A DNA stretch of 34,124 bases from a virus: positions 1-34,124 of the IMG/VR virus record IMGVR_UViG_3300032083_001321. One strand, given 5' to 3'. Under the pieces are notes generated by a model. The model was not told the DNA's origin. It worked only from the letters and a program-made list of their open reading frames with translations, and did no database searches. The translations under genes and the position numbers were made by a program. Shown piece after piece: positions 2,970 through 30,929 of this stretch. Every line of letters starts with the position of its first letter. Within the stretch, counting starts at the first letter, position 1.

Positions 2970-2997
2970 CCACTTTTTTGAAGTTTTTTTAAAAAAA

Positions 2998-3530: not shown

Positions 3531-3548
3531 ACATTAAGTTTTACTTAT

Positions 3549-3758: not shown

Positions 3759-3764
3759 TCTCTC

Positions 3765-4460: not shown

Positions 4461-4489
4461 CGTCATTCCTTTTCGTTTCTGATATATTT

Positions 4490-6026: not shown

Positions 6027-6033
6027 ATGTTTT

Positions 6034-6195: not shown

Positions 6196-6206
6196 TGTAG
6201 TTCTCC

Positions 6207-7090: not shown

Positions 7091-7109
7091 TATAACTCTC
7101 CTTTAATCA

Positions 7110-8900: not shown

Positions 8901-8911
8901 TTCTTATTCCC

Positions 8912-9916: not shown

Positions 9917-9949
9917 TTAACTCTTCCTTACATCAACAGCAATAAAGCT

Positions 9950-9977
9950 ATTATACAGCATATGTAGGGAATGTCAA
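9950..9977 (-). promoter_or_regulatory. sigma70-like early promoter P4
   Basis: On the minus strand TTGACA (9972-9977) and a consensus TATAAT (9950-9955) are 16 bases apart. It lies in the gap between the holin-like gene and the primase gene. It should drive primase, nrdA, the 170-aa gene, glutaredoxin, two small membrane proteins, nrdB, the zinc ribbon and the GIY-YIG-like gene. Confidence 0.8.
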
Positions 9978-9978
9978 C

Positions 9979-13388: not shown

Positions 13389-13925
13389 TTACCACCAAGA
13401 ACTAGGATTATCTACTTGCATACCAAGCATCTTAGCATATCGTGGTAGACGACACGCCCAATAAGATGGCTTTGTTTTATCGTTTCTCGTATCACATTTA
13501 TGTCTTGCAGCGAATGACTTTCTAGCAGCAACATCATTGATCTTAGCTTTAAGACCCGTTGTGTCACCCCAAGTAACTTTCTTTACATTACCTGTAGACG
13601 GGTCTTTCACATACACATAGAACTTCTTTGGACCACCACGTTTTGGCTTGTTGAGTTCTGGTTCAGCTTCTTCGACAAGGGGGCAATCAAGAGGAACTTC
13701 TTCTCCTTGATAGTCTGCCATCTCACCGAGGTCAGTTTCTAGAATTTGAGCATCGAGTGAAGATACATTTAATGCACCATCTTTATAGTATTGTCTTGCT
13801 TCACGAAAGAATTGAAAGTAGCTTTCTGAAAGTGGACGATACACATTATCTATAAGTGAAATATCGTTTGCTTCCATAAACCACATGGCTTTCTCTACAT
13901 CCGCATGTTGCCCAAACTTTATCAT
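13389..13925 (-). CDS. T4-like phage protein with conserved Cys/His C-terminal module
   Basis: This 178-aa protein has an acidic N-terminal half and, from about residue 93, the module KKFYVYVKDPSTGNVKKVTW followed by FAARHKCDTRNDKTKPSYWAC. I know this module (a DUF5872-like domain) from marine phage proteins and from environmental sequences. It keeps His-Lys-Cys-Asp and Tyr-Trp-Ala-Cys motifs that may bind metal or nucleic acid. The protein ends in Trp-Trp. Its stop is 3 bases from the cupin-like gene and its start overlaps the giant mosaic gene by 4 bases (ATGA). Likely made late with the mosaic protein. Confidence 0.65.
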   Translation of the reverse strand: MIKFGQHADVEKAMWFMEANDISLIDNVYRPLSESYFQFFREARQYYKDGALNVSSLDAQILETDLGEMADYQGEEVPLDCPLVEEAEPELNKPKRGGPKKFYVYVKDPSTGNVKKVTWGDTTGLKAKINDVAARKSFAARHKCDTRNDKTKPSYWACRLPRYAKMLGMQVDNPSSWW

Positions 13926-16900
13926 TGACCGGGTGTGTCCTTTTTATACTTAGCGTTCAACTCATCTGTACCTTCTTCGCCTGCACCATATTCTTCATCG
14001 ACCAATTTAGCGAGTAGTCTAGGGTCTAGTTTGAGATTATTCATGCGAATGACTTCTGCTGCCCAATAAGAATTAGAATGTCTTCCAGTTTTATCTTTCT
14101 CTTTTTCTTTTTTTACGAGTTTGGCAGCTTGTTTGTATTTGTCTTTATTTAACATAAAGCCTATTCTAGATTCGTCTACATCATCTGAAGATTTAAATCC
14201 AGCCTTTACTTGTTGTTCTTGAAACATCGTATCGCTAATCATAGCATTAAACGCTTCATTCACATCATCTGTTGCGGTATCACATTGCCCGCAACAATCT
14301 GGTGTTCCACACTTATCATGATCAACTTCTTCTTTCTCTTCTTTAACGTCTTTCACATATTCGGCAATCTTATCTATATGACTCTGTATATAGTTATGCT
14401 CTTCTTCTTTATCCATTGTCTTAGCCATTGACATGATCTGAGCAGCAATCTTTTTTGCGGTATCCAAATCATCTTGTGTAGCTGTTTCTGTTTCAATGAC
14501 TTCCTTTTCAATGCCAAAAAGAGTATCGTGTAGTTTGGCAGATTTAACAACTTCGTCAGTAGGCTCTAGCTTCTTATATAGAGCAACAGCACTTGGACAC
14601 ATATCAAAATGCTTTGTTTCAAAATCACCTACTTGTATGTTCTCACGATTATCTTCTTTTAATGCAGCATCAATCTTTGCACGAATGCTTGGGGATAGTT
14701 CTTTATAATGATAGAGGCGTTTGCTATCTGGACCATGTTCTGCACCAGTATAAACTTCTCCTTCATAAGCATGTTGGTCGCCATCCCATTCTTCACCATT
14801 CTCTAGATAATGACCATCTGTTCTCCAACTATTTGCTTCTTTCATACCACGCTGTTTTTCTGCTTGTGCAGCACGAATCCATTGTTTCGCTGCTGACCTC
14901 TTGGGAGTTTTCTTCACCCACGCTGACATTCTTTTATATGCAGACATTGTAGCAGCATCAAAATCTCTCACGCCTTCTGAATTATCAATTACGATGAAGT
15001 CTTGCTTAAACTTTTTTTGGAATCTACCAATGTTGCGCTGAACAGCATCCCACATCTTCTCAACTTGATCTTCGGGTAATGTGCGTTCACGTTTTTTGTT
15101 ACGAGCCTGTGCAGTTTTAAGGTCTGTGTTGACAAATATCATTGCAATATCATAACCAAGTTCTGTAAGTTCGTCAGCCTGTCTTTTAATCTTAGTATAA
15201 TCTTTACCCGTGCCATCAATGACAAGCCCTAAACGACCATTTAAGGCGAGTTTTTGTTTCATACCTGTAAGTGCTACCGCACGGGCACGAACCTCTTGAC
15301 CTTTAGGTGAGAAGATATCTTCAGGTGTTGGTTTCAACCCAACCTTCTTCAGTTGTGCTTCAAACGCATCATCAGAATTAATTAGCTTCAATCCTAAAGC
15401 AGTCAATGCTGTTTTACCAACAACAAATGATTTGCCTGACCCCGGACCACCAGCAAGAAATACAGCTTTGAAGATGCCTGGGTCATTCACACCTTCATCA
15501 ATATCAACTTCTTCTTTTCTGTTTGTTGCTTTTGTATCTGCTAATCTAGCACGATCCATTATAGCATCGTGTTTCTTTTTATCAGCTTCTTTTTCTCTTT
15601 TGATTGCTGCTCTTGCAGTATCTACAGCACCTTCACCAAGGTCAACTTCTTCACCACGAACTTTAGCGGCTAGGTCAGCATCAGCTTTACCCCATGTACC
15701 CTTTCCTTTTGTTATGAAAGAGTTTACACGAGCATATGCCCATTGCTCTTGACCAGCGCCAGGGCGATGACCAGTTCTCCAAGCAGCCATACCTCTATCA
15801 TAGACCTTCTTGAGAATACCATAGGGAATACCAGACTTCTCAGACTTTTTTTTTAATCCCTCAAGAGATTTTTCTACAATCACTTCTTCGAACATCTCGT
15901 TCAAAACATCATTGAGCATATAGTCAACTTCTTCGATGAAACCCTTCTCATCAAGTTCAACTGGTTTTACCATGTTGACCCTATAACGCTTGAAACGCTG
16001 GTCATGCTTGACTGTGTTCTCTTTACCAAACATTTGATGATAGCGCTTTGTATGCTTTGAAGTCTTCGTCTTAGCATCAGAGTCGCCAGCGTGTTTATCT
16101 GGATAAGCAGATGGGTCATCACTATCTTTCTCAGCAGCTTTTCTAAACTGAGCATCACGCTTCTGCTTTGTAGACTTAGCAAGACCGCTGTGATACTTAG
16201 CTGGTTGAGAACCCTCTCTATCACCAATATCTTTGTCTTCTCTTTCAAAAAGATTTTCAAACTCTTCGTTGACGCTTTCTACTGTTACAGACATGAAGTC
16301 TGGCATATCATCAAGATAGATAGCATAGCCACCTCTCTTCTTAGAGTCTTGATATGTGAGATGTGCTTTACGACCCTTTGATGACTTTGTGATTTTCTGA
16401 ACGACCATCTTATCGCTTTCAGATGGCACTTTTGTCTTTGGGTCTACAATGCCGCCCATCTTGTATTGGCGTTCGCTTTTACTAACTGTGATAGTGTCAC
16501 CCTTTTTGACTTCAGGTGCAACTGCTTCGTTCACACTTTCTTTAGCTGGTCCACTTCTGACCTTTGCAAGTCTTTCTTTTTCAGCTTGCTTCACTTTTTG
16601 AAATTGCTTTTTAGCAATCTTCGCAATCAGACCCTTCTTCTTTTCAACCTTCTTGTCAATAGACATTTTTTCTGATGGAGAAAGATTTTTATAATCTGTG
16701 CCTTTAGCGCCAGCAACTTTCTTTCTGATAACCTCAATTGCTTTTTTACGAGAACGAAGTTTCAACTTCTCAGGTGACGCCATCTTCTTTGCAGCAATCT
16801 TACGACCACGCATAATCTTAGATTTAGCTTTCTTAAAGGCCATCGCTCTCTTTCTACGAGCAGCGACACTGAGAACAGCTTCGAACATCAAGTCTTCGCC

Positions 16901-17560
16901 AAGCTCTTGTTCCATCTCTTCAGCAATCTTCATACCATCTCTGACCGCTTGGTACACCTTACTTGCAGAACTCTGTAGCTTCTTAGGAAGACCAGACTTG
17001 AATGCTTTCTCATCACCAGCAGCAGCAGCGGCTCGCATCTTAGATGCAGACATACCAGCCACACCTTCAGCATCTGGATCACGCTCGCCAGCAGAGACGA
17101 CTTCAATAGAGTCGAACGTGTAGTCTTTACCGTTGTATTTGTTGAGTAGGGTTTTAAACTCTTCAACTCTGTCTGAACCTGCAACCATAATCAGTTTTGT
17201 ATGACCCATGTCTTCTAGCTCTTTAGCAACCTGCATAAGCGTCTTTGAGCGAGACTTCATAACCATATTACCAAATGCTTTCTTTGCGAGAGCAATCTTA
17301 GTAGCATATGGCAATGGATTCTTATTTGAATCGTATGATTGTGAGAGATAGAGATGTGGCATCGCATTGTTCTGTTTTGCGACTGCATTGATTTTGGCAA
17401 CGAGTTTTTCGTGACCAATCGTGGGAGGATTCATCCTTCCAAACGAGAATACCGCTGTTGGCGATACATCTTCTTCTAGCTTGGGATTGATTTCAATCGT
17501 ATTCTTTACGACAGCATCATTCTTCTTCTTGTCCTTTTTGGACTTCTTCTCATCTTCCAT
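13922..17560 (-). CDS. 1212-aa mosaic protein: nucleotidyltransferase plus P-loop kinase modules
   Basis: This giant protein is a chain of modules. Residues about 35-200 form a cytidylyltransferase/NadM-like domain with GRMNPPTIGH (41-50, HxGH-type motif) and GMSASKMR (169-176). A highly basic helical module covers about 230-335, and an SH3-like small beta module 350-426. A charged module lies at 445-530, and one with GILKKVYDRGMAAWRTG at 565-635. Residues 695-880 hold a P-loop kinase (Walker A GGPGSGKS, 704-711) like zeta/polynucleotide kinases. After 905 come an acidic region with a Cys cluster (CGTPDCCGQC, 1084-1093) and a final basic module. Acidic linkers such as ESVNEAV, ESVNEEF, EEVDIDEG and DDVNEAF separate the modules. 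A late promoter lies at 17611. It may be packaged with DNA or processed, but that is inference. Confidence 0.8.
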   Translation of the reverse strand: MEDEKKSKKDKKKNDAVVKNTIEINPKLEEDVSPTAVFSFGRMNPPTIGHEKLVAKINAVAKQNNAMPHLYLSQSYDSNKNPLPYATKIALAKKAFGNMVMKSRSKTLMQVAKELEDMGHTKLIMVAGSDRVEEFKTLLNKYNGKDYTFDSIEVVSAGERDPDAEGVAGMSASKMRAAAAAGDEKAFKSGLPKKLQSSASKVYQAVRDGMKIAEEMEQELGEDLMFEAVLSVAARRKRAMAFKKAKSKIMRGRKIAAKKMASPEKLKLRSRKKAIEVIRKKVAGAKGTDYKNLSPSEKMSIDKKVEKKKGLIAKIAKKQFQKVKQAEKERLAKVRSGPAKESVNEAVAPEVKKGDTITVSKSERQYKMGGIVDPKTKVPSESDKMVVQKITKSSKGRKAHLTYQDSKKRGGYAIYLDDMPDFMSVTVESVNEEFENLFEREDKDIGDREGSQPAKYHSGLAKSTKQKRDAQFRKAAEKDSDDPSAYPDKHAGDSDAKTKTSKHTKRYHQMFGKENTVKHDQRFKRYRVNMVKPVELDEKGFIEEVDYMLNDVLNEMFEEVIVEKSLEGLKKKSEKSGIPYGILKKVYDRGMAAWRTGHRPGAGQEQWAYARVNSFITKGKGTWGKADADLAAKVRGEEVDLGEGAVDTARAAIKREKEADKKKHDAIMDRARLADTKATNRKEEVDIDEGVNDPGIFKAVFLAGGPGSGKSFVVGKTALTALGLKLINSDDAFEAQLKKVGLKPTPEDIFSPKGQEVRARAVALTGMKQKLALNGRLGLVIDGTGKDYTKIKRQADELTELGYDIAMIFVNTDLKTAQARNKKRERTLPEDQVEKMWDAVQRNIGRFQKKFKQDFIVIDNSEGVRDFDAATMSAYKRMSAWVKKTPKRSAAKQWIRAAQAEKQRGMKEANSWRTDGHYLENGEEWDGDQHAYEGEVYTGAEHGPDSKRLYHYKELSPSIRAKIDAALKEDNRENIQVGDFETKHFDMCPSAVALYKKLEPTDEVVKSAKLHDTLFGIEKEVIETETATQDDLDTAKKIAAQIMSMAKTMDKEEEHNYIQSHIDKIAEYVKDVKEEKEEVDHDKCGTPDCCGQCDTATDDVNEAFNAMISDTMFQEQQVKAGFKSSDDVDESRIGFMLNKDKYKQAAKLVKKEKEKDKTGRHSNSYWAAEVIRMNNLKLDPRLLAKLVDEEYGAGEEGTDELNAKYKKDTPGQ

Positions 17561-17610: not shown

Positions 17611-17618
17611 TATTTATA
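17611..17618 (-). promoter_or_regulatory. T4-type late promoter
   Basis: An exact TATAAATA on the minus strand. RNA would start near 17605, 45 bases before the start of the 1212-aa gene, with a TGGAGAG ribosome site in between. It is the likely source of the late cluster from 17560 down towards the lysis genes. Confidence 0.75.
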
Positions 17619-17672: not shown

Positions 17673-18371
17673 TCATGCATTAGTAAATGTTGTTGATTTC
17701 AATCTTTGCGTATCTGTGTAGTATGTCTTAGTAACACCAAGAAATGGAAAGAGTTGTTGACATATCAATGCATCATTGGGCCACATTCCATGATCATAAG
17801 CAGCACCAATGATTTGATCTGCTCCTTCTGGTTTAATGACATATGCTGAAGCACCAGCAATACCTTGTGGAACTTCCATACTATCAATCACTGGGCAATC
17901 AACGAGTGGTCCAGGCGCTGTTTGCACTACAGAATGAAAGCGACCATCAAGCCTTGTATTTCCTCTCGGCTCATTGATACCAATCACTTCATAATCTGAG
18001 TCAATCACATATTGAGCGTCAAACTTACGAAGAAACTTAGCATCGTGTTCTAGAATTAGAATTGGTTCGCTCTCTTCTACACACTTCTTCCACAGATAGT
18101 AGTGGCTCATAGCACAGGCATAACGACGCTTTGGTGGTCCTCCATAATAATGAAACTTCATCTTGAGTTTCTCATTGTATACACGACCACTGTCTGGCCA
18201 AGTCCACTTCAAGCCTTCTTTCTCCATATGCTCATCGACATTATCTGCTACGATAGCATCAAACCTTTCGATTGTAAAGTCATTTCCAACATTTTCTGAT
18301 GACTCAACGAGAGTTTTGTATCCACCCTCAGATAGGGCATGGTCTTTCATTACGATTGCAAAGCATTTCAT
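17673..18371 (-). CDS. glycosyltransferase family 25-like protein
   Basis: GT25 enzymes add sugars to lipopolysaccharide or to collagen-type proteins. The 232-aa protein shows the family layout: a conserved YACAMSHYYLWKKC stretch (84-97, compared with cALSHi.lW in GT25) and then the metal-site strand ILILEHDA (104-111), where the usual EDD reads EHD. Near the C-terminus GIAGASAYVIKPEGA resembles the family acceptor-side loop. It is the last gene of the sugar cassette, overlapping the upstream gene by 4 bases (ATGA). A second GT25-like protein begins the cassette (24687-25409). The exact donor and acceptor are unknown. Confidence 0.75.
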   Translation of the reverse strand: MKCFAIVMKDHALSEGGYKTLVESSENVGNDFTIERFDAIVADNVDEHMEKEGLKWTWPDSGRVYNEKLKMKFHYYGGPPKRRYACAMSHYYLWKKCVEESEPILILEHDAKFLRKFDAQYVIDSDYEVIGINEPRGNTRLDGRFHSVVQTAPGPLVDCPVIDSMEVPQGIAGASAYVIKPEGADQIIGAAYDHGMWPNDALICQQLFPFLGVTKTYYTDTQRLKSTTFTNA

Positions 18372-19111
18372 CTTTCTAAATTCACTCCTCCATAAACGCT
18401 TGTGTGTATAGTTCCGCCATATGGTTTACTCATTACTTGCCACCATCCCCATTCAGCACCTAACAGTTGACGTTGCTCGTGCAAATCATATACCAGACTC
18501 GTATCTAATTGCTCTCTAGTATGTATGATTAAATTATCTGCGAGTTGTTCAAACCAGTCTGTATGTTGATTTATATCTTCTGTTTTGGGTACCATATGAC
18601 CTTTTGTATTGCGAAAATCATATTTGTTTAGACCACTGGTTCTAATCATGAAACCAACTGGACCTTCATTGAGTGCAACATCATACCATGACTCAAAGTC
18701 AAAATTTGGATTGATTGAGCAGTCCCATCTTGTTCTGATGTAGAGGTCATAATCATTTGGTATCTTATCGAAGAGATTGCTGTAACCAATTATTTGCTTG
18801 TTGCCGTGAAGCGTTTTATCACCATCGGTTTTAGTTCTTCTATACCAATGATGCTTTGGACTTCTAGTTGGCTTTGGGTCAAATATAGGATGATATTCCA
18901 TAATTGGTTCTGGTGTAGTGAAAAAGTTACCACTGCGATACTCTAATGGAATTTTGTTAAGTTCAGTATCCCATGTGTGATAATACATATCTGCTTTGAA
19001 TTTATTTTTCATTTCCAATAAATTAGAAGACACGCTAACTGGTCGGCGTCTTACACCATTGCCACCAACATTATTTCTATACAGTCCAGATATTCCAATT
19101 GCTATCTTCAT
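18368..19111 (-). CDS. putative glycosyltransferase-like protein, sugar cassette
   Basis: This 247-aa soluble protein has the N-terminal MKIAIGISGLYRN start typical of a nucleotide-sugar or surface-sugar enzyme, and the conserved stretch LFDKIPNDYDLYIRTRWDC (about 113-131). I associate that stretch with glycan-cluster proteins of phages and bacteria. There the DYDLYIRTRWD strand resembles the DxD-type donor site of GT-A folds. The ATGA overlaps on both sides show it is part of the 12-gene unit. I infer a glycosyltransferase or related sugar-handling role; no family is certain. Confidence 0.55.
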   Translation of the reverse strand: MKIAIGISGLYRNNVGGNGVRRRPVSVSSNLLEMKNKFKADMYYHTWDTELNKIPLEYRSGNFFTTPEPIMEYHPIFDPKPTRSPKHHWYRRTKTDGDKTLHGNKQIIGYSNLFDKIPNDYDLYIRTRWDCSINPNFDFESWYDVALNEGPVGFMIRTSGLNKYDFRNTKGHMVPKTEDINQHTDWFEQLADNLIIHTREQLDTSLVYDLHEQRQLLGAEWGWWQVMSKPYGGTIHTSVYGGVNLER

Positions 19112-19590
19112 CGTGATAAGTTCACATAATATGGAGCATCATCATACAATATCTCTTTAAACTTTGATTCCATATCATCAGCATCTATGGGCCATAATTT
19201 CTTTATGTTTTTGAATCCGCTCATATGCTCTTTGTCATCGTGTGCCCAATGTGACGGTCCTAACCAGTCATAATCGTAGTCTCTACCTGCACCAAATAAC
19301 TTGACAGGAATCTTATCAACATCTAATTGATTTCGTATAAACTCGAATGGTCTGTAGATTGTAAAGGGCGTCATAGAATATACAATAGGAATTTTCTTCT
19401 CAAGTGCCATACCAACTGCTGCGCCAACCATCAGTTGTTCAGCAGCACCCACATTAATAAATCTGTCTGGGTATGTCAGTCTGTGCTGGTCGAATTGTTT
19501 CCATCCAAGGTCACCAGCAACAATCACGATGTTCTCGTTGATAGCCATTTCGTGATATAGCAGTTCTGTGAATTTTTTACGAACGCTCAT
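19108..19590 (-). CDS. transketolase-like protein, pyrimidine-binding half
   Basis: This 160-aa protein is the second half of a split thiamin-diphosphate (ThDP) enzyme, the pyrimidine-binding (Pyr) domain. The catalytic Glu is Glu51 in FINVGAAEQLMVGAAVG (45-61), which activates the cofactor. Downstream are the IPIVYSMTPF strand and a histidine-rich active-site segment (GPSHWAHDD). The C-terminal domain seen in full transketolases is absent. It overlaps the upstream gene for the PP half by 14 bases, so both halves are made together and should assemble into one active enzyme. It would transfer a two-carbon ketol unit to or from a sugar phosphate; the substrate is unknown. Confidence 0.85.
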   Translation of the reverse strand: MSVRKKFTELLYHEMAINENIVIVAGDLGWKQFDQHRLTYPDRFINVGAAEQLMVGAAVGMALEKKIPIVYSMTPFTIYRPFEFIRNQLDVDKIPVKLFGAGRDYDYDWLGPSHWAHDDKEHMSGFKNIKKLWPIDADDMESKFKEILYDDAPYYVNLSR

Positions 19591-20218
19591 TGTCTATCTC
19601 TTTCAATCCTTTAAGATATTGTTCTTCACTCATCTTCATATAATGAGCATCGATACCAGCTAGAAACGACAGTTCATTTACCTTCGTTCTGTGAAAACAT
19701 ATATTGGGCAAGAACGCTCTACATCTTCTCTCTAGATAATTTACATCAACCGGGTCATAGCAGGCATAGCCATTAGCATTGACATGAACCTCTATATTTT
19801 GTAGATTTCGTTCGTGTATAAGTCTCAATGCTTCCCAAACAGAACCTTCTGCACACTCACCATCTGTTATAGTGACATAGACGTTTTTGTGTGGGCTTGC
19901 GATTGCTGCACCAACTGCAATCGTTATCCCTTGTCCGAGACTACCCGTTGAGCAGTAGATTTTGTTTTCAACATCTAGATTTGGATGACCCAGATGCTTT
20001 TTCACAAGAGCATCAGCATCAATACCATGATATTTTTCTAGAATACAATACAATGCATACGCAGCATGACCGTTTGATAGAACAAATATATCATCTTTTT
20101 TCATACGACTGTGTATATCATCGATGATATCAATACACGAAAAGCAACTACCTACATGCTCTTCTTGATGGTCATATAGTAGTTTCAACAGTCTTTTTCG
20201 TAGCTGCTTATCTCTCAT
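19577..20218 (-). CDS. transketolase-like protein, diphosphate-binding half
   Basis: This 213-aa protein is the N-terminal (PP) half of a split transketolase. It has SNGHAAYALY (48-57), the loop STGSLGQG (90-97) and the ThDP/metal motif TDGECAEGSVWEA (118-130) with Asn147 or Asn149 downstream. Canonical enzymes have GDGExxEG, so Thr replaces the first Gly here. At 213 aa it is at the short end for this half. It pairs with the 160-aa Pyr half downstream (14-base overlap). Split transketolases of this type occur in surface-sugar clusters and in pentose pathways. The cassette context favours making an unusual sugar skeleton. Confidence 0.85.
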   Translation of the reverse strand: MRDKQLRKRLLKLLYDHQEEHVGSCFSCIDIIDDIHSRMKKDDIFVLSNGHAAYALYCILEKYHGIDADALVKKHLGHPNLDVENKIYCSTGSLGQGITIAVGAAIASPHKNVYVTITDGECAEGSVWEALRLIHERNLQNIEVHVNANGYACYDPVDVNYLERRCRAFLPNICFHRTKVNELSFLAGIDAHYMKMSEEQYLKGLKEIDNERS

Positions 20219-20912
20219 TCACTTGCTCCAAATCTTCTGGTGTGCCCAGAATTTCATGCTTTGTATTAACATCTACACCAACTTTCAGTCCCTCCATTAT
20301 TAACAGGTTGAATGTTGGTGCGATGTAAAACTCTCCTTTGGTTCTCATATTATTACTTATCATATACTCAGCACAATGAACGAACATTCTACCCACACTG
20401 AAATAGTATAAACCACCAATAGCCATATCACTGATAACTTCTTTTTCAGCAGTCTCAGTTACAAACCCAGCTTTATCTAACTTTACATAGCTATGTGCTG
20501 GGCTTGTAGAGTTGAACACACATACCATTCCTTGATATTTCTCATCAATATCTTCAGGTACTATTTGTGGTTCAAAATAACAATCTGGCGTAAAGATGAT
20601 AAGTGGTTCATCAGTATTGATATAATCTTTTGCTAACATACAAGTACTCAAAGCACCATCAGTTAATGTCTCTGCGACAACAAACTTAGCGTCTGGATAT
20701 TTCTCTAATAGCTTTTCTTGTATATTGAAATCATCAATGTGGTCTCGCCGTACAACGAATATCATATTGCATTGGTCTAACTTGACCGACTCAAGCGACC
20801 TTTCAATAATTGTCTTACCATTTGTTTTGATAAGAGGTTTTGGTAACTCGTACCCTTTATCAACAAACCTTTGTCCATTGCCAGCGATTGGTAAAAGTAA
20901 GTTATATTTCAT
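20208..20912 (-). CDS. sugar nucleotidyltransferase
   Basis: This 234-aa enzyme would activate a sugar phosphate as a nucleotide sugar. The Rossmann-like nucleotidyltransferase motif is LLPIAGNGQRF (6-16) with PKPLI (24-28), as in glucose-1-phosphate and related NTP-transferases. The acidic strand FTPDCYF (about 108-114) is in the usual metal-site position. It overlaps the transketolase and PfkB-like genes by 11 bases each. Together with a kinase and a phosphatase in the same unit it resembles heptose- and KDO-type activation routes, but the sugar and nucleotide are not known. Confidence 0.82.
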   Translation of the reverse strand: MKYNLLLPIAGNGQRFVDKGYELPKPLIKTNGKTIIERSLESVKLDQCNMIFVVRRDHIDDFNIQEKLLEKYPDAKFVVAETLTDGALSTCMLAKDYINTDEPLIIFTPDCYFEPQIVPEDIDEKYQGMVCVFNSTSPAHSYVKLDKAGFVTETAEKEVISDMAIGGLYYFSVGRMFVHCAEYMISNNMRTKGEFYIAPTFNLLIMEGLKVGVDVNTKHEILGTPEDLEQVNER

Positions 20913-21570
20913 CTGTCAATACCTTAATCGTGTTCTCGTGTGCATAATCTAATGCATTGTCTATATTATCTTCCATCAACATAGATGAAATAAAGCAAGC
21001 AGCAAACGTATCGCCAGCACCCAAAATATTTATGTTCTTGATTACATCATTCGTCTTTGTGATGTTTCTATTACCATCTGACGAATAGCTACCGCCTGGG
21101 TAATGTAGAATAACCCAACCTTTTACTAACGATGCAAGTTCTTCAACATCACAATCAATGTCTTCGTCTGATATGAAAAGATAATCTATATGCTTGAGTT
21201 GCTCATGAATAACCATACTGCCCGCTGTCGTATCTGCTGATATGATACCAGACTTTATATCAGATATGAATGACGTATCTTTCAGTTGATTGAGATACAT
21301 AATGTGATGCCAGCGTGAATTCACTATTTCCGGAGTTACGCATCTTGTGTTTAGATTTCCTCTACCAACACGTTGACTCATACATTCATCTACTAGAATG
21401 ATTGCATCACCTATAGCGCATGGATTCAACTTTACTTTAAGAACATTATTAATCTTCTTAATCGCAATCCAGAAGTTAGCGATTGCACCCAAAGATATGC
21501 TCTCTTTGAAATCTTTAATGATATGGTCTACTGTAAGATGCCCGTAAAGCGCTAAATCGTATAGATTCAT
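20902..21570 (-). CDS. PfkB-family sugar kinase
   Basis: This 222-aa kinase of the ribokinase/PfkB family has the hallmark NILGAGDTFAACF near the C-terminus (about 181-193), whose Asp is the catalytic base and whose Gly-Ala-Gly-Asp binds the phosphate. The usual N-terminal substrate lid is short: normal members are about 300 aa. The overlaps (4 bases with the phosphatase gene, 11 bases with the nucleotidyltransferase gene) show one translation unit. It would phosphorylate a sugar or sugar phosphate, as HldE-N does with heptose-7-phosphate. A reduced but probably active enzyme. Confidence 0.78.
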   Translation of the reverse strand: MNLYDLALYGHLTVDHIIKDFKESISLGAIANFWIAIKKINNVLKVKLNPCAIGDAIILVDECMSQRVGRGNLNTRCVTPEIVNSRWHHIMYLNQLKDTSFISDIKSGIISADTTAGSMVIHEQLKHIDYLFISDEDIDCDVEELASLVKGWVILHYPGGSYSSDGNRNITKTNDVIKNINILGAGDTFAACFISSMLMEDNIDNALDYAHENTIKVLTDEI

Positions 21571-22112
21571 TTCATTTCTGCACTCGCTAGTTCCTTCGTA
21601 TCTAACTCTAACACCTCTTCCATAGACGCTTCAATGATCCATTCTTCTGATGCAATATCGTATAATTCAACGATGACACCTTCGCCACCCTTCGACTGTA
21701 GTACTCTGTGTGCTGCTTCTTTTATCGTGTTTGGAGCATCAGATGGACAGAACGACCAATCTAAAACTTCAAACATCGACAGGTCAAAATAGTCATCACC
21801 GACAAATGCCATTTGACCTCTATCAAGATTATACATTTCAGAAAAAGTGTCCAGATGCTTTGACTTATCTAGGCTGAAGTTGTTGTCTCTCGTGCAGAAG
21901 AATGGAATGTTTCGCTTCTCTGCCATTGTACGATTCCACTCATCACCTGATATCATCACAACATCTATCCCTGCTGCTATGAACCTCTTGATTGCAGTGA
22001 AGTCCTTACACATGAACTCTTTATATACTGGTGTGTGGTCTTTATCATATACCTTCACGCCTTTTGTTAGCACACCATCCACATCAAGTATTAGTAGTTT
22101 AATTTGATCCAT
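21567..22112 (-). CDS. HAD-family sugar phosphatase, KdsC-like
   Basis: This 181-aa enzyme resembles KDO-8-phosphate phosphatase (KdsC) and related HAD type C0 enzymes. Motif I is LDVDGVLT (9-16) with the nucleophile Asp10 and general acid Asp12. Motif II is VVMISGD with Ser55, motif III includes Lys83 or Lys85, and motif IV is VGDDYFD (104-110). Length matches KdsC (about 180 aa). It lies between the GDPD-like gene and the PfkB gene. In the cassette it most likely removes a phosphate from the sugar intermediate before or after kinase action, as in heptose and keto-sugar routes. Confidence 0.88.
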   Translation of the reverse strand: MDQIKLLILDVDGVLTKGVKVYDKDHTPVYKEFMCKDFTAIKRFIAAGIDVVMISGDEWNRTMAEKRNIPFFCTRDNNFSLDKSKHLDTFSEMYNLDRGQMAFVGDDYFDLSMFEVLDWSFCPSDAPNTIKEAAHRVLQSKGGEGVIVELYDIASEEWIIEASMEEVLELDTKELASAEMK

Positions 22113-22566
22113 TTTTATATGCCTCTACATAGTCTGAACAGATGCCACCATATCCTTTAACGTCTTGGTTATGAACTTCTGGCATTACAACAATTGCTCT
22201 GCTTCTATTTCTATATGATATTTCTTTATTGGGTAGACACCAGATATTATTTCTAGAAGTTAGTGTGTAGTCATCTTCTTGGTGCCAAAAATATTGAAAT
22301 TGTGAGTGAACATGCTTTGACATTTGATACAATGCTTTGTCGTTTTTACAATGTATCCATAGCCTTGGTGTTGCTAGAAACTGAGAATAAATGGGATATT
22401 GTGGATAGTCATGACCAAGAAACCATCCCCATTTACGATCATGATCATACCACACATCAATCTCACAATCGTATCCTTGTGCTAAAGCACTTTGAATATA
22501 CTCAACGCTATTTTCAAACTCTGGGTTGGGTCCGGCTATGTTTCCACGATGTGCAATGTATATCAT
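22099..22566 (-). CDS. glycerophosphodiester phosphodiesterase-like protein, short
   Basis: This 155-aa protein matches the N-terminal part of the GDPD family: HRGNIAGPNPEFENS (6-20, with His6-Arg7), CEIDVWYD (35-42) and GHD (51-53). These carry the first catalytic and metal residues. Usual GDPD enzymes are about 240-300 aa and close a TIM barrel, so this is either a minimal version or lacks part of the barrel. It is flanked by methyltransferase and phosphatase genes with overlaps of 4 and 14 bases. I know similar short proteins from marine surface-glycan clusters. It might act on a phosphodiester in a glycan or membrane lipid; substrate unknown. Confidence 0.7.
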   Translation of the reverse strand: MIYIAHRGNIAGPNPEFENSVEYIQSALAQGYDCEIDVWYDHDRKWGWFLGHDYPQYPIYSQFLATPRLWIHCKNDKALYQMSKHVHSQFQYFWHQEDDYTLTSRNNIWCLPNKEISYRNRSRAIVVMPEVHNQDVKGYGGICSDYVEAYKNGSN

Positions 22567-23192
22567 TTTTCTATCTTTACGATATAACTATCTGGCATAC
22601 GAGACGGTCCCCTCAAATCAATCTTTGTCACCTTATATTGATTTATTGCTTTTGCAAAACCGTCCCAAAGTTCTAAGTTATAACGCTCTGGTCTATCTTT
22701 AATCCACTGATGTGACCACTCATTTTCTGTCATGATATCAAGTGGCCAAACGTCTTCTACATAGAAGATGCCATCATCTTTTAGAAAGCCGATAAGATTT
22801 TCAAACGTCTTTGTGTTTGCTTCTGGTGTGTGAAGACCATCATCGATGATGAAATCAAATTTGACATTACCCCATGCAGATTTGATATCACTATAGATGG
22901 GGAGTGTAGAGTCCGCTTTCAGCCAATGAACTCTTTCGTGCTTCAGTATGGAGATTTGCTCTGGTGTGATTCGTGTTGAGCCATCAGGCCAAGTGAAGAT
23001 ATCAATACCATAGACTTGAGCATTTGGAAAGTAATCTACCCACGAAGAGTGACTGCTTCCTTTATGAATACCAACTTCTAAGATATTGATTGGGTCATTT
23101 CTTCGTGGCTCAAAGTCTTTAGCATATACTTCATAGTAATGATGCCTGTCTTTGTCACAAGAGTGTTTTCTAAAGATTTCATTAAGTTTCAT
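22563..23192 (-). CDS. SAM-dependent methyltransferase, sugar cassette
   Basis: This 209-aa class I methyltransferase has the SAM-binding loop ILEVGIHKGSS (37-47), then the acidic strand VYGIDIF (60-66) that would bind the ribose, and a DFIIDDGLH strand (about 114-122). The sequence is closest in feel to sugar and antibiotic O-methyltransferases (CmcI/macrocin type) in which DGxH motifs position a metal. It overlaps the sulfotransferase gene by 11 bases. Likely to methylate a hydroxyl on the cassette sugar. Confidence 0.82.
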   Translation of the reverse strand: MKLNEIFRKHSCDKDRHHYYEVYAKDFEPRRNDPINILEVGIHKGSSHSSWVDYFPNAQVYGIDIFTWPDGSTRITPEQISILKHERVHWLKADSTLPIYSDIKSAWGNVKFDFIIDDGLHTPEANTKTFENLIGFLKDDGIFYVEDVWPLDIMTENEWSHQWIKDRPERYNLELWDGFAKAINQYKVTKIDLRGPSRMPDSYIVKIEK

Positions 23193-23886
23193 TGCTCAAA
23201 GCCCAATAGTTTTTAGTTGCACTGCTATCAAAATCGTATCCCCAATAATCAATATCTTTTTGATACAAGTCTGCCACAATTTGAATCGTCTGTGGTGTAT
23301 ACATTTCTTGATAAGTCTTCTTGTTCACATCAGTGACGTTACGGGCACGAGTCATTTCTTCTATGCCCAAATACTTACAGATTTCGTCGTTGAGATGCTC
23401 TAGTCTTATGATATCACATCTAACAACATCATTCTCATCACACACATGGTCGTAGACTGGCGTCCAGTGTCTGATTGCTCTGTGCCACATATACTCAACA
23501 TCAATCCATTTATGTCTCTCTTCTAGAAACGCTTCAAACGATGAAACATCTACATAATCTTCTGATAAGTTTTTTTCAACAAATCTACCCTTATAAGCGA
23601 ACCAATACTTCGACACAACTCTATCCCACGGGTTTCTAGCAATAGCAAATGCAGTCATCTTACTTGTTACATCAGGATGAACATCTCTCCATCTACCATG
23701 CTCAAGCCCTGGGTCTCTTGTATGACCAGTCTCAATCATCTTTCGTTTTACGTTGTCGATATATTGACTTGACTTTAGATTTGTTCTGTCAACTATCTGA
23801 ACGTATGGTTTGAGAGGACCACTGAGTGCTGGCCACCTGATTGTCATACCACCATTTTTTGGTATGTGAATAAACAGTTTCTTCAT
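23182..23886 (-). CDS. sulfotransferase (PAPS-dependent)
   Basis: This 234-aa enzyme has the two classic PAPS-binding motifs: IHIPKNGGMT (6-15, 5' phosphosulfate loop) and AIARNPWDRVVSKYWF (81-96, 3' phosphate loop). It belongs to the carbohydrate sulfotransferase group (Sulfotransfer_2 type). It would move a sulfate from PAPS to a sugar hydroxyl. PAPS must come from the host because no cysC/cysND gene is visible. It overlaps its neighbours by 4 and 11 bases within the sugar unit. Sulfation is unusual for a phage product and suits a marine setting. Confidence 0.88.
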   Translation of the reverse strand: MKKLFIHIPKNGGMTIRWPALSGPLKPYVQIVDRTNLKSSQYIDNVKRKMIETGHTRDPGLEHGRWRDVHPDVTSKMTAFAIARNPWDRVVSKYWFAYKGRFVEKNLSEDYVDVSSFEAFLEERHKWIDVEYMWHRAIRHWTPVYDHVCDENDVVRCDIIRLEHLNDEICKYLGIEEMTRARNVTDVNKKTYQEMYTPQTIQIVADLYQKDIDYWGYDFDSSATKNYWALSNET

Positions 23887-24686
23887 ATCCCAAGGATTCC
23901 TTTGATAGCGTTCATGTCTTCGCCTTTACCACCTAAGTGATCCTTGAGAAAGAAGTGAACGAAGTGTGCTTCTGGAATCTTGCTGTCTTCAGCACCACGA
24001 TACAAAGCGTTCCATCGCCAGTCCATATGCTTGACATTAGCACCGTCTTTACGAAGCCAATAGTTCAATAGCACTTGGTCTGTCGAGTAGCGAAACAAAC
24101 CAATGCCATCTACAAGGTCTTTGAACAGTGGTCGATGAATGAACTTCTCAGGCTCTTTATACTCAGGAACATACTTACGAATCGAGTTGTTGAATAGCAT
24201 CATACCCATATTCATAAACCCAGCACCGTCTTCGTTCCACTGCCAGTCAACATCATTGCATGGCGCTTTCTTGAACATATCGCCAGAGTATCCTCGAATC
24301 TTTCTTCGATGATTGTGAGAGAGTGGTAGGTCTCTTTCTAGCACACCACCCCAATCATACTCTGGTGGCAAGTCATCAAAGATGTTTGGCGCTGATTCAC
24401 GAATGTAAATGTCTGAGTCGATAACAGCAATCTGGTCATAATCATCTAGATATGTGAATGCCCACTCCTTCTCGAAGATTGGTAGATAGCCTGCTTCTTT
24501 CATCAATCCAATCTTGTTACGCTCAGTACGAGCCATCTCTGGATTGATACGAAGTTTAGGTTCTCTCATAATCACATGGTCGATACCATACTTCTCGCAA
24601 TACTTCGCTGCTGACTCTGTACATAGATCATACAGATTACTTTGCCCACGAATAGGAATATAGATTTGAAATAACAATCGTTTCAT
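23883..24686 (-). CDS. GT-A-type glycosyltransferase (GT8-like)
   Basis: This 267-aa protein has a GT-A donor site: AFTYLDDYDQIAVIDSDIYI (about 76-95) ends in the Asp-Ser-Asp (DxD) that holds the metal and nucleotide sugar. Downstream GFMNMGMMLFNN (about 156-167) is the typical acceptor-side strand of GT8-like enzymes, and a C-terminal HFFLKDHLGGKG may close the site. It follows the first GT25-like gene directly. It would add a sugar to the glycan made by this cassette; linkage unknown. Confidence 0.78.
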   Translation of the reverse strand: MKRLLFQIYIPIRGQSNLYDLCTESAAKYCEKYGIDHVIMREPKLRINPEMARTERNKIGLMKEAGYLPIFEKEWAFTYLDDYDQIAVIDSDIYIRESAPNIFDDLPPEYDWGGVLERDLPLSHNHRRKIRGYSGDMFKKAPCNDVDWQWNEDGAGFMNMGMMLFNNSIRKYVPEYKEPEKFIHRPLFKDLVDGIGLFRYSTDQVLLNYWLRKDGANVKHMDWRWNALYRGAEDSKIPEAHFVHFFLKDHLGGKGEDMNAIKGILGI

Positions 24687-25409
24687 TTAAATACCACCAC
24701 CCTTTTTCTCTCCTAGATTTTCTTTTGATATGTAGTTCTCTTTGAAAGACTCCAATATAGGTTGATAATTATCAACTGCTGACTTGCCCCAGATAGTTGA
24801 TTGTCTCAACCAACCAAGACTTGCTATTGGGTCTGTGATAAACAGCTTAACATTACCACGGCTATTGTCTGTTAGAAAGAACTGATTGTCAATATGATTG
24901 ATTCTCTTACCACTGTTTACGTTCTCTAGCAATGTGTTTGCTGTGGTCGCAGTAAGAGCGTATGCGTGAGCGCCACCGTGTCTTCGCCTCTCTTCTAATC
25001 TTGAAGGAGGTCCGACCTTTTCGTGATTATAGTTTTCGGGGTCTTTAACTTTATATCCTAGACAAACAAGTGCATTGTCTGGTATATCGATATCTACTTT
25101 GTGAAGTAGAACCGCATCATGCTCTAAAATAATCGCACAATCATTCTCTTGACGTATCTTGTGCCACAGAAGAAAGTGACCTGCTGTCGCCATAGCAGGT
25201 TTACCCTTTGTGCTTGGCTTCTTATTGTCAAACTTAACGCCTTGCTTTTGAACGTATTCCCAAGGGCTATCATTGTCTTCGGTTGGTTGAAGACCCTCAA
25301 AATACTCCCAAGGCATTCCTATTTTATCACAGGAATCAGCAGCAGTCTTTGCATACTCATTTGATATATCTGTATCGATTTTTAATATATACGCTTTCTT
25401 TGGTTTCAT
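24687..25409 (-). CDS. glycosyltransferase family 25-like protein, first gene of the cassette
   Basis: This 240-aa protein starts MKPKKAYILKIDTD. It has GHFLLWHKIRQENDCA (77-92) and AIILEHDAVLL (92-102), again with EHD in place of EDD, and a C-terminal SLGWLRQSTIWGKSAVDN, as in GT25. The ATG at 25409 has GAGG upstream. An in-frame start at 25454 lies only a few bases after the late promoter and is rejected. It shares the Glu-His-Asp donor motif with the cassette's last gene (17673-18371), so the two GT25 members frame the cassette. Donor and acceptor are unknown. Confidence 0.76.
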   Translation of the reverse strand: MKPKKAYILKIDTDISNEYAKTAADSCDKIGMPWEYFEGLQPTEDNDSPWEYVQKQGVKFDNKKPSTKGKPAMATAGHFLLWHKIRQENDCAIILEHDAVLLHKVDIDIPDNALVCLGYKVKDPENYNHEKVGPPSRLEERRRHGGAHAYALTATTANTLLENVNSGKRINHIDNQFFLTDNSRGNVKLFITDPIASLGWLRQSTIWGKSAVDNYQPILESFKENYISKENLGEKKGGGI

Positions 25410-25457
25410 AACAATCCTCACATACAAAAATAGGGCTGACACGTCAAGCATCAACCC

Positions 25458-25465
25458 TATTTATA
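25458..25465 (-). promoter_or_regulatory. T4-type late promoter of the sugar cassette
   Basis: An exact TATAAATA on the minus strand, with RNA expected to begin near 25452, some 43 bases before the first GT25 gene. No other promoter is seen upstream of the 12 overlapping genes, so the cassette is probably a late operon of about 7.8 kb. Confidence 0.75.
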
Positions 25466-25484: not shown

Positions 25485-25649
25485 TTATCGACTTCTGCGT
25501 TCTGCTAATAGTCTAGTATAAATCTGTTCTACCTCTTTACGATGAGTTGGACCCAGTGCATACATACCTAACATTTGATTACAAACATTAATCTGACGAT
25601 CTACTACCCAGTTATCCATTTTCTTTTTGAAATATGTTTTTACTGACAT
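25485..25649 (-). CDS. 54-aa hypothetical protein with structured leader
   Basis: I translated this protein by hand: it begins MSVKTYFKKKMDNWVVDRQI, is basic and helical, and ends AERRSR. The ATG at 25649 follows AGGAG by 8 bases. The stop lies 19 bases from the late promoter of the sugar cassette. The leader is unusual: an intrinsic terminator sits about 30 bases upstream, and an 8-base element upstream of that terminator is the exact complement of this gene's ribosome-binding site. This implies control of translation or of transcription. No family is recognised. Confidence 0.6.
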   Translation of the reverse strand: MSVKTYFKKKMDNWVVDRQINVCNQMLGMYALGPTHRKEVEQIYTRLLAERRSR

Positions 25650-25676
25650 GGTTAAAACTCCTACGTTTTCAATATT

Positions 25677-25713
25677 AAAAAAGCAAGAAACCCTTTCGGC
25701 GTTTCCTGCTTTT
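25677..25713. terminator. intrinsic terminator, bidirectional-capable
   Basis: A stem of 10 base pairs (AGCAAGAAAC at 25682-25691 with GTTTCCTGCT at 25701-25710, one G-T) is capped by a C-C/G-G extension around TTTC. It is flanked by A runs on one side and T runs on the other, so it can stop transcription in either direction. On the minus strand a run of six U follows. It ends the ligase-like gene unit and, if used, the candidate small RNA. Confidence 0.82.
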
Positions 25714-25763
25714 ATTTAGTGTGTAGGAGTCATAATCAGATAGTACATTTTTGCTTATCTGAT
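25677..25763 (-). ncRNA. candidate small structured late RNA / attenuator leader
   Basis: A late-like element CATAAATA (25769-25776, one change from TATAAATA) would start RNA near 25763. The RNA would open with a hairpin: ATCAGATA at 25756-25763 (read on the minus strand) pairs with TATCTGAT at 25735-25742. A single-strand ACTCCTAC (25723-25730) follows, and the terminator at 25677-25713 ends it, about 87 bases in all. ACTCCTAC is the exact complement of GTAGGAGT (25657-25664), the ribosome site of the 54-aa gene. This is a prediction from sequence; the promoter is one base off consensus. Confidence 0.38.
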
Positions 25764-25791
25764 AGAACTATTTATGCAATGTGACATGCTG

Positions 25792-28698: not shown

Positions 28699-29244
28699 AT
28701 GAATAGATTTATCATTGCTTTGTTTGCTTTGATTTTTGCGTCCTCGGTCGCACATGCACAAACAGAAGATAAGATAACGACGGATAACACGAGTAAGATT
28801 GATTCTGAGACTACGGTTAAATCTCCTCCGCCGTCTGCTATTTCTCCCAATATCAATACCTCAAATTCTGATTTGTGTACGATTGGTGTTTCTGGCGCTG
28901 TTCAGACACAGATTCTAGGTCTGTCTGCTGGTAAGACTGTACGAGATATGAACTGCGAGAAACTGAAGAATGCTAAAACGCTATATGATATGGGAATGAA
29001 AGTTGCTGCTGTATCTGTGATGTGTCAAGATAAACGAGTGTTTGATGCTATGATGCACGCCGGAACACCTTGTCCATATGATGGTAAGATTGGTGTTGAA
29101 GCTAAAGCAGCATGGCAAGACGATGAGGCGTTGCAGCCAAAAGAAGAGAATACAGTTAGGAGTGTAATGGAAGATGATAGCACGATTACCCTTATTGGTG
29201 GCGGCATTGTTCTCGGCTTGCTTGCCATTCTCAGCCTACTCTGA
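28699..29244 (+). CDS. exported membrane-anchored protein, marine phage family
   Basis: This 181-aa protein has a signal peptide (MNRFIIALFALIFASSVAHA) with a likely cut after Ala20. A Ser/Thr/Pro-rich linker follows, then a conserved domain (about 57-140) with DLCTIGVSGAVQTQILGLS, RDMNCEKLKN and AGTPCPYDG carrying four or five Cys. It ends in a C-terminal membrane helix (TLIGGGIVLGLLAILSLL). I know this Cys-containing family from T4-like and other marine phages, where no function is established. It would sit in the periplasm held by its C-terminus. The last 71 bases overlap the next gene in another frame. First gene of a late operon. Confidence 0.75.
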   Translation: MNRFIIALFALIFASSVAHAQTEDKITTDNTSKIDSETTVKSPPPSAISPNINTSNSDLCTIGVSGAVQTQILGLSAGKTVRDMNCEKLKNAKTLYDMGMKVAAVSVMCQDKRVFDAMMHAGTPCPYDGKIGVEAKAAWQDDEALQPKEENTVRSVMEDDSTITLIGGGIVLGLLAILSLL

Positions 29245-30022
29245 GACAAAAACTGCTACGTCTGGAAATGCAGCAGACGGTCAAACAGTATGGGACATGC
29301 AAACGATATTACCACCTGAAACGGGTCTTATCGTAAATCAAGTACATTATAACTATACAGTAACAAAGGTTAGGGAAGACGACTTTACAGTAACGATTCA
29401 AAACGAAAGAGTTGGTGGCGGTGAAAACATCTTTGAAAGCACAGATGTTTGGTCTGGATTAGACGGTAACACGATTGATAAGAATATACCCGTTGCAAAT
29501 TTACCAAGGGAGATATGGGGTGATGGAAGTCTGACTACAACTGGAGAAGGAACAGTATCAGATGCTAACGTTCGCTACAGTTATATTTTTGACGACTGTC
29601 TTGATCCACTGACGAACCCGTTATGCCCACAAGATGAGCCACCAGAATTGCCTGTGATTGTAAATCCGTTTGATTCAGATGAAGTGCAGGATGCTCTTGC
29701 AGACAAAGTAGACGTAGATGATGAAGATGATGAACGTAAAGATGATGAAGAGAATAGTTTAGAAGACAAGGAAAAGAGAAGACAATTAGCACAAGAGAAC
29801 AATCCATTACTAGTCAATGCGGCGCAACTTTCTGCACTGTTTGATCAAATGTCTCTTGTTCCTAAATTTGATTCGTATTACGCTGCTGATATACAAGGTG
29901 GCACCTATGAAGAAACTATTGAGTTAAAAGATGGTACATTACCTGATAACAGAAGGGCAATGAGAAGCCTCGCTAAAGACCAAAAGTTTGAAACAATCAT
30001 TAGGTCACAGTACGACAAATAG
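29174..30022 (+). CDS. exported protein with acidic low-complexity segment
   Basis: This 282-aa protein has a signal peptide (MIARLPLLVAALFSACLPFS, cut near AYS-E). A beta-rich domain (about 30-150) contains VWDMQTILPPETG and a Thr/Ser-rich strand pattern. It is followed by a Pro-rich linker, an acidic run (about 175-200: DVDDEDDERKDDEEN), and a helical C-terminus with the ERTLP-like basic end. Its first 71 bases lie in a different frame within the preceding gene's membrane-anchor codons. No family is recognised. It is likely periplasmic or surface-exposed and co-made with the other exported proteins. Confidence 0.68.
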   Translation: MIARLPLLVAALFSACLPFSAYSETKTATSGNAADGQTVWDMQTILPPETGLIVNQVHYNYTVTKVREDDFTVTIQNERVGGGENIFESTDVWSGLDGNTIDKNIPVANLPREIWGDGSLTTTGEGTVSDANVRYSYIFDDCLDPLTNPLCPQDEPPELPVIVNPFDSDEVQDALADKVDVDDEDDERKDDEENSLEDKEKRRQLAQENNPLLVNAAQLSALFDQMSLVPKFDSYYAADIQGGTYEETIELKDGTLPDNRRAMRSLAKDQKFETIIRSQYDK

Positions 30023-30033
30023 GAGATAAAAAT

Positions 30034-30546
30034 ATGGCTAAGAGAACAATAGGTTATTTTTTAGCAATCGTTGGAGCAGTATTTGCAAGTCAAACACTCG
30101 CAAACGAAAATGCACCAATCACAGGAACAGTAGAGTCTAAGTGTGTAATCTTTACTGAAACACAAGGTGTATATGGCACACCACTCGCAAGCAGACTTTC
30201 TACTACTGCGGCAGATGGTGGCGTTCAACCAATCATTCGTTATGACGTAGCACTTGCTGATGCGTTCAAAGGAAAAATAACATTTCCAAGTGAATTTTCA
30301 AGTTCACCAAGCCTAACAGATACTCTAGCATTCACAGGGAATGTTGAAGTTCATAGTGTATCTGATACTGGAATGGCGGACTATGACACTAACAAAATAA
30401 CATTCAACAACACTCACGAATATGATTTGACGGTTGCTGGTACAACTAAGTTCAAAATCTCTTCACAGGTAGACTACGGTAACAGTAAGGCTTTCCCTGC
30501 TGGTACATATACAACACTTGTAAATGCGGAGTGCATTGCAAAATAA
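30034..30546 (+). CDS. exported fimbria/adhesin-like beta protein
   Basis: This 170-aa protein has a signal peptide (about 1-23, cut near LANE) and a mature beta protein. It starts APITGTVESKCVIFTETQGV and ends TYTTLVNAECIAK, with Cys at about 37 and 167 that would close a disulfide. The Thr/Ser/Gly-rich strands and paired terminal Cys are typical of pilin-like and spore-coat U type domains. A GGAG ribosome site precedes the ATG. It is followed by a candidate chaperone-like protein. A pilus or surface-fibre subunit is a reasonable guess, but no donor-strand motif is identified. Confidence 0.6.
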   Translation: MAKRTIGYFLAIVGAVFASQTLANENAPITGTVESKCVIFTETQGVYGTPLASRLSTTAADGGVQPIIRYDVALADAFKGKITFPSEFSSSPSLTDTLAFTGNVEVHSVSDTGMADYDTNKITFNNTHEYDLTVAGTTKFKISSQVDYGNSKAFPAGTYTTLVNAECIAK

Positions 30547-30557
30547 GGTAGGACATT

Positions 30558-30929
30558 ATGAGAATTGTAATTTTAGCAGCAGCGTTATTGTTTTCTTTTA
30601 GCGCTGCTGCCCATGAAATGACACCGGCATACTTGAAGATTGAACAATCTGAAGTGACTGATGTATATGCTACAGAGATTAAGATGTACAACAGAAGAAG
30701 TGATGTTGATTACTATCAGATATCTGTGTTCGATAGCGAGTGGAATAAACTTCCATTTGCATCATTTCAACGACTATTCAAACTTCCTTATACGAAAAGA
30801 AAAACGATTAAGGTATATTTTCAAAAAGAAGTTGTTGATAAAGTCGTATATGTTTGTACAAAATCTAAGTTGTATAAGGGAGCAGGAACATTCGTATCGT
30901 CACGAATATGCTCTAAAGTGAAACGATGA
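30558..30929 (+). CDS. exported small Ig-like protein, possible periplasmic chaperone relative
   Basis: This 123-aa protein has a signal peptide (MRIVILAAALLFSFSAAAH, cut after Ala18). It then has a beta-sandwich-like domain with TPAYLKIEQSEVTDVYATEIK and DVDYYQISVFDSEW, a basic strand near PYTKRKTIKVYFQKE, and two late Cys (about 100 and 118). The strand order resembles the N-terminal Ig domain of fimbrial chaperones but at less than half their length, so it cannot be a full chaperone. It is followed by the next gene with a 4-base overlap (ATGA). Role unknown; association with the pilin-like protein upstream is inferred from order. Confidence 0.6.
   Translation: MRIVILAAALLFSFSAAAHEMTPAYLKIEQSEVTDVYATEIKMYNRRSDVDYYQISVFDSEWNKLPFASFQRLFKLPYTKRKTIKVYFQKEVVDKVVYVCTKSKLYKGAGTFVSSRICSKVKR

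Follow-up and report, generated by a model that had tools for sequence, protein, structure and literature searches.

Marine T4-like phages, among them pelagimyophages and cyanomyophages, carry lipopolysaccharide (LPS)/O-chain islands in which glycosyltransferase genes stand together with sugar-synthesis genes, and these islands are thought to change the host surface (PMC7029224; P-SSM2 in PMC2984593). Phage surface-sugar genes are usually catalogued singly, as glycosyltransferases. A well-defined route to an activated surface sugar is the nucleoside diphosphate (NDP)-heptose pathway, which starts from a ketose phosphate and proceeds through an isomerase, a kinase, a phosphatase and a nucleotidyltransferase. 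Here we analyze a 7.7-kb cassette at positions 17673-25409 of a marine T4-like phage stretch of 34,124 nucleotides (IMG/VR virus record IMGVR_UViG_3300032083_001321; the whole stretch is called the window). We give somewhat better than even credence to the reading that it is a late-transcribed operon which makes a nucleotide-activated sugar and transfers it to a surface glycan, with sulfation and possibly methylation. An earlier annotation made from the letters alone (the original prediction) had proposed a complete, late-expressed cassette for a methylated and sulfated sugar; its central idea, an operon expressed late whose products make a plausibly sulfated sugar and transfer it, is supported by the gene families, a conserved viral core and late-type promoter motifs.

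The cassette comprises twelve open reading frames (ORFs) on the minus strand, all in one direction, with spacings of -4, -4, -14, -11, -11, -4, -14, -4, -11, -4 and 0 nucleotides (nt). The predicted end-to-end overlap was thus seen at ten junctions, by 4, 11 or 14 nt, while one junction only abuts. Family assignment of the proteins with Pfam, PHROGs and NCBIfam gave the following set (lengths in amino acids, aa).

17673-18371, minus strand: GT25-family glycosyltransferase, 232 aa; Glyco_transf_25, E 1e-13
18368-19111, minus strand: putative transferase, 247 aa; no Pfam, NCBIfam or PHROG match, hhalign probability 97% to a family that neighbours the core described below
19108-19590, minus strand: TktC, pyrimidine-binding half of a split transketolase, 160 aa; Transket_pyr, E 3e-14
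19577-20218, minus strand: TktN, thiamine-diphosphate-binding half of a split transketolase, 213 aa; Transketolase_N, E 5e-11
20208-20912, minus strand: sugar-1-phosphate nucleotidyltransferase (NTase), 234 aa, without the RpiB domain of its relatives; PHROG 3980, E 2e-51
20902-21570, minus strand: short PfkB-type sugar kinase, 222 aa; PfkB, E 0.001; GAGD motif
21567-22112, minus strand: KdsC-like HAD phosphatase, 181 aa; TIGR01670, E 1e-22, below cut-off
22099-22566, minus strand: mini-GDPD-like protein, 155 aa; conserved catalytic-type residues, AlphaFold model
22563-23192, minus strand: putative methyltransferase; Methyltransf_24, 27.8 bits against a cut-off of 26.3
23182-23886, minus strand: sulfotransferase; Sulfotransfer_2, E 3e-12; PHROG 3347, E 6e-15
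23883-24686, minus strand: possible glycosyltransferase, 267 aa; no family match, DSD motif read from the sequence only
24687-25409, minus strand: GT25-family glycosyltransferase, first gene of the operon; Glyco_transf_25, E 7e-8

These matches bear out the split transketolase, the KdsC-like phosphatase, the nucleotidyltransferase and the sulfotransferase named by the original prediction. The phosphatase is best described as KdsC-like, short of a demonstrated KdsC: it scores 80.8 bits against TIGR01670, under the curated cut-off of 107 bits, and it matches the KdsC structure 1j8d (E 7e-15). The NTase is of the RmlA/GlmU-like class and matches PDB 4evw (E 9e-22); alignment with its fused relatives confirms that the RpiB domain is absent. 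The GAGD motif of the PfkB protein is invariant in 11 relatives, a longer relative scores E 2e-15 against PfkB, and the protein has no match to the HldE kinase model. The mini-GDPD protein matches no Pfam family, so that its predicted GDPD-like nature is carried by structure and conservation: GDPDs are the top four PDB entries found by Foldseek with its AlphaFold model (pLDDT 93), at a probability of 0.92-1.0, E 0.004-0.02 and TM 0.50-0.60, for a chain of only 155 aa and with nothing below E 0.001, and the H-R, E-N, E-x-D and H positions are conserved.

These four enzymes form a core that recurs in viral genomes. A transketolase-based search yielded 12 IMG/VR relatives, excluding the window's own contig. 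KdsC, PfkB, NTase, TktN and TktC are all present in the 12; the GDPD-like gene is found in 11, as is an RpiB/LacAB isomerase domain, which in these relatives is fused to the NTase (E 5e-31, clearing the curated TIGR00689 cut-off). Scanning IMG/VR with the NTase-RpiB fusion gave 181 relatives, from which 80 loci were read; thinning to 80% identity left 34 lineages. KdsC occurs in 77 of the 80 loci (33 of the 34 lineages), PfkB in 78 (33), mini-GDPD in 75 (33) and the transketolase pair in 14 (7). KdsC, PfkB and NTase are consecutive in 65 of the 80, and the pair follows the NTase immediately in 10 of the 14 loci that carry it. By these gene contents the transketolase pair is an optional part of the module. 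A single-sequence KdsC scan of IMG/VR retrieved the window's own contig only. In public phage genomes, matches to the whole fusion are confined to the Synechococcus phages Bellamy (two records) and SynMITS9220M01, whose module genes are annotated only as phosphatase or hypothetical. The core is kept in nearly all of the 80 IMG/VR loci, and it is present in Bellamy.

Bacterial genomes were sampled around a Maricaulis metagenome-assembled genome (MAG). The two samples, 385 genomes from one class and 398 from one phylum, contained no match that extended over both parts of the fusion: the class search found NTase and RpiB parts at separate places, and the phylum search, run with a strict limit, found NTase parts only. 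Within this small sample of 783 genomes the fusion therefore looks viral. In some of the sampled genomes (L202-L205, L210) the same NTase family adjoins a GDPD-like gene, a HAD gene or a small cupin, neighbourhoods that suggest a cellular version of part of the module.

Both transketolase halves find their best PDB match in a split enzyme. The TktN profile matches 6yak (E 3e-17), and that of TktC matches 6yaj (E 2e-21) over residues 35-193 of 341. The thiamine-diphosphate site is kept, with the D-G-E...N motif of TktN invariant, together with three His motifs, and the Glu of TktC in place; positions aligned with true transketolases are likewise kept, the final Arg of TktC included. Pfam gave no match to the Transketolase_C domain in TktN, TktC or the other cassette proteins, and the 6yaj alignment stops at residue 193. 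In the open-access literature we found no description of a split transketolase, or of this core, in phages. The pair also occurs in sugar clusters of MAG contigs labelled Planctomycetaceae, Maricaulis and Thaumarchaeota (L022 at 2992-11430, L018 and L019), with HldE-like genes or with RfbH and a reductase; some of these contigs may be viral.

The original prediction also placed an exact T4 late promoter at 25458. The octamer is present there, in the following setting.

25458-25465, minus strand: late-type promoter octamer, exact TATAAATA, 49 nt ahead of the first ATG of the cassette (25409)
25428-25462, minus strand: terminator-like hairpin overlapping the promoter octamer; 15-pair stem and T run, -19.8 kcal/mol, z -6.05
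17611-17618, minus strand: late-type octamer TATAAATA, 51 nt upstream of the start (17560) of the gene that follows the cassette

The window contains six copies of TATAAATA, where 2.0 would be expected. Five of the six are correctly oriented and precede a gene start by 30-91 nt, a placement for which about 5.5% of positions qualify; permuted octamers give a mean of 0.5 such sites, and none tested exceeds 3. The cassette octamer itself stands at a fitting distance before its gene. With late-type motifs ahead of five gene starts in the window, late expression of the cassette is likely. The statement that this is the only promoter can be retained as far as this motif within the cassette is concerned; sigma-70-like matches are no more frequent than chance predicts. 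A gene for the late sigma factor gp55 is missing from the window. Orthologues of the two flanking genes have late-type octamers in other contigs, TATAAATA at -40 to -42 for DUF6267 and CATAAATA at -35 to -38 for the cytidyltransferase gene. In several transketolase-bearing contigs (L006-L013) the island lies near a gene that reads, by eye, like gp55, in a genomic place other than that of the window.

The cassette octamer sits in the 5' arm of the hairpin at 25462-25428, a strong one with a T run that the original prediction does not mention. It could accordingly be a by-product of an A-rich terminator arm, in which case read-through, or an early promoter that went unrecognised, would drive the cassette. 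We regard this as improbable: four other octamers of the window stand at gene starts without such a hairpin, and upstream read-through would be halted by the hairpin itself. In T4, transcription begins a few bases downstream of the late octamer. In computed folds, an RNA shortened to start there has lost the arm and folds weakly; since the start would lie downstream of the octamer, the new RNA could not form the hairpin. Transcripts entering from upstream would fold into it and terminate, so that the cassette would be insulated. Two more units of an xTAAATA octamer plus hairpin lie at 25640-25780 on the minus strand (CATAAATA at 25776 and ACTAAATA at 25720), around a 54-codon ORF; such octamer-hairpin units are possibly a regulatory unit resembling the promoter-stem-loop cassettes of T4-type phages.

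The order of the core enzymes follows the step logic of the NDP-heptose pathway, and the enzyme classes therefore make a ketose phosphate the likely substrate and an NDP-aldose the likely product. The transketolase pair may make or reshape the ketose phosphate, by moving a two-carbon unit between sugar phosphates. An RpiB-type isomerase would convert the ketose to an aldose phosphate; the window lacks one, and the host or a different part of the genome presumably provides it. The PfkB enzyme would then phosphorylate C1, the KdsC-like phosphatase would remove the distal phosphate, and the NTase would form the NDP-sugar. Two GT25 enzymes, perhaps with two further transferases, would attach the sugar, and the sulfotransferase would decorate it. 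The 247-aa protein at 18368-19111 is one of these candidate transferases, and the family to which it aligns is present in 43 of the 80 core loci; its AlphaFold model, built from two sequences (pLDDT 31), was not used. Nor did we use the count of sulfotransferase-like relatives in viral loci, a cluster chained by single linkage in which families are mixed.

Several observations weigh against this operon model. The window encodes no sugar-phosphate isomerase, RpiB or other, and the PfkB match of the window protein is weak on its own. The predicted four glycosyltransferases are reduced to two with GT25 matches (17673-18371 and 24687-25409), those at 18368-19111 and 23883-24686 matching no known family. 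The methyltransferase is barely over its cut-off, which leaves methylation of the sugar as a guess. Two other module-bearing contigs (G009, G011) show no enrichment of TATAAATA at gene starts, so that late control is not general among carriers of the core. Finally, in MAG and single-cell contigs the transketolase pair adjoins reductases, and RfbH in L018 passes its curated cut-off, neighbours that point to branched sugars. The word "complete" must also be dropped for the cassette as seen, because its NTase lacks the isomerase domain of its relatives and none is found elsewhere in the window; moreover, no flippase, polymerase or ligase, and hence no export or polymerisation gene, was recognised among the cassette proteins (Pfam/NCBIfam).

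The reductase neighbours raise the question of whether TktN and TktC attach a two-carbon branch to a keto sugar that is bound to a nucleotide, in the manner of yersiniose-type branched sugars, while the KdsC/PfkB/NTase core makes a separate sugar in parallel. The absence of the pair from most core loci agrees with such a division, as does the missing transketolase C-terminal domain, through which the activity may have changed. However, Pfam recognised no keto-sugar dehydratase or reductase in the window cassette, the pair follows straight after the NTase in most loci that have it, and the residues of true transketolases are kept; in addition, HldE-like kinase and nucleotidyltransferase genes adjoin the pair in L022, which hints at a heptose link. 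We thus consider the branched-sugar route unlikely.

As to the acceptor, the original prediction reasoned from the late promoter to the virion. This step fails: in T4-like phages the envelope, too, can be changed by late products, and neither timing nor anything else in the sequence singles out the acceptor. By analogy, we consider a host envelope glycan of the LPS type more probable than virion protein, because pelagimyophage LPS genes have been interpreted as O-chain modifiers (PMC7029224) and the GT25 family description refers to LPS biosynthesis. That the phage puts the sugar on its own virion proteins strikes us as rather unlikely, even if late expression would coincide with capsid and tail assembly. 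The late-type promoter fits this idea, and in the absence of a flippase, polymerase or ligase the enzymes could act on proteins in the cytoplasm; one GT25 protein also weakly matches PHROG 61, annotated as a 2OG-Fe(II) oxygenase family. Against it, the cassette is not beside structural genes in the window, and the marine myophage precedent, itself a proposal, is O-chain change (PMC7029224).

The GT25 enzymes and the sulfotransferase also suit a surface glycan better than DNA glycosylation or nucleotide metabolism, to which the cassette might otherwise be assigned. T4-like phages do glycosylate their DNA, and transketolase and RpiB reactions touch ribose metabolism; but the T4 DNA glucosyltransferases are made before the late genes, and no DNA glucosyltransferase or hydroxymethylase family was found in the cassette (Pfam/NCBIfam), making this option very unlikely. 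A broader proposal, and one that we put forward as doubtful, is that a viral NTase-RpiB/PfkB/KdsC-like/mini-GDPD pathway, spread in aquatic T4-like phages, supplies a sugar that is absent from the hosts and that is placed late on virions or on the dying-cell envelope, so that progeny would carry or leave behind a virus-specific sulfated glycan.

The cassette lies between two conserved phage genes.

25792-27021, minus strand: upstream border, conserved phage gene DUF6267 (E 4e-107); 47% identical in Melnitz, 40% in HTVC008M
13922-17560, minus strand: downstream border, conserved phage gene for a 1212-aa protein, with homologues in the corresponding position of HTVC008M and Melnitz

Gene order and homology are common to the window, Methylophilales phage Melnitz and Pelagibacter phage HTVC008M for several backbone genes (gp41, DUF6267, cytidyltransferase-like, S-layer-type protein, primase and ribonucleotide reductase). 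The junction is empty in Melnitz, where the DUF6267 gene overlaps the next gene, a homologue of part of the 1212-aa gene; in HTVC008M a single 170-aa gene lies between the DUF6267 and cytidyltransferase-like genes, and in the window the junction holds the 7.7-kb cassette and one 54-codon ORF (25650-25487). Other core-bearing sugar cassettes occupy the same junction in 11 IMG/VR contigs (L148-L156, L165, L166), with the DUF6267 gene upstream in 10, the cytidyltransferase gene downstream in 6 and both in 5; in 7 more (L173-L175, L178, L179, L187, L189) the cassette is just upstream of DUF6267. These contigs are interrelated, and independent insertions are therefore fewer than 18. As judged from these gene orders, the DUF6267/cytidyltransferase junction is a recurrent insertion site of sugar cassettes.

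In the 1212-aa protein a cytidyltransferase-like N-terminus is joined to a DUF5824 stretch and to a zeta-toxin/AAA_33 kinase domain; Melnitz and HTVC008M distribute these parts over two or three genes. Five plus-strand genes (28699-31309) separate gp41 from the DUF6267 operon, with TATAAATA at 28651 ahead of the first; four are without any Pfam match and one matches DUF6488 weakly, and at least four of the proteins start, by eye, like signal peptides. Their position is reminiscent of that of the CsgF/CsgG 'curli' genes described for pelagimyophages and Melnitz (PMC7029224, PMC9004378). Neither known RNAs (Rfam) nor tRNAs (ARAGORN) were found in the window.

Comparison with known systems sets the cassette apart at several levels. 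The split transketolase of Carboxydothermus hydrogenoformans (6yaj, 6yak) is likewise encoded by two genes; the phage halves measure 213 and 160 aa, versus 309 and 341, and lack the C-terminal domain as well as the last part of the N chain. The NDP-heptose pathway (GmhA, HldE/HddA, GmhB, HldE/HddC) shares the step logic, with the differences that the isomerase, in relatives, is RpiB-type instead of GmhA, the phosphatase is KdsC-like and the NTase is not HldE-like; with no isomerase in the window cluster and no enzymes of the GmhA, HldE or GmhB families, the cassette departs from that pathway in both respects. Bellamy and SynMITS9220M01 share the KdsC-like phosphatase and the NTase, and Bellamy also has the short PfkB and the GDPD-like gene, in one run; it differs in having no transketolase pair, an NTase fused to RpiB and a class II aldolase nearby. 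Dozens of viral lineages thus share a recognisable, fixed enzyme core, almost unannotated and with a predictable reaction order. Its presence in cultured phages of Synechococcus, Bellamy and SynMITS9220M01, helps to turn the vague purpose of phage LPS genes into a testable question of defined product, timing and acceptor. Since it groups glycosyltransferase genes with sugar-synthesis genes in a marine T4-like phage, the cassette belongs, by its gene content, with the known phage LPS/glycan islands, as a variant form that differs from them in being one coupled operon with a four-enzyme core, a split transketolase, a sulfotransferase, a late-type promoter and a place at the DUF6267/cytidyltransferase junction.

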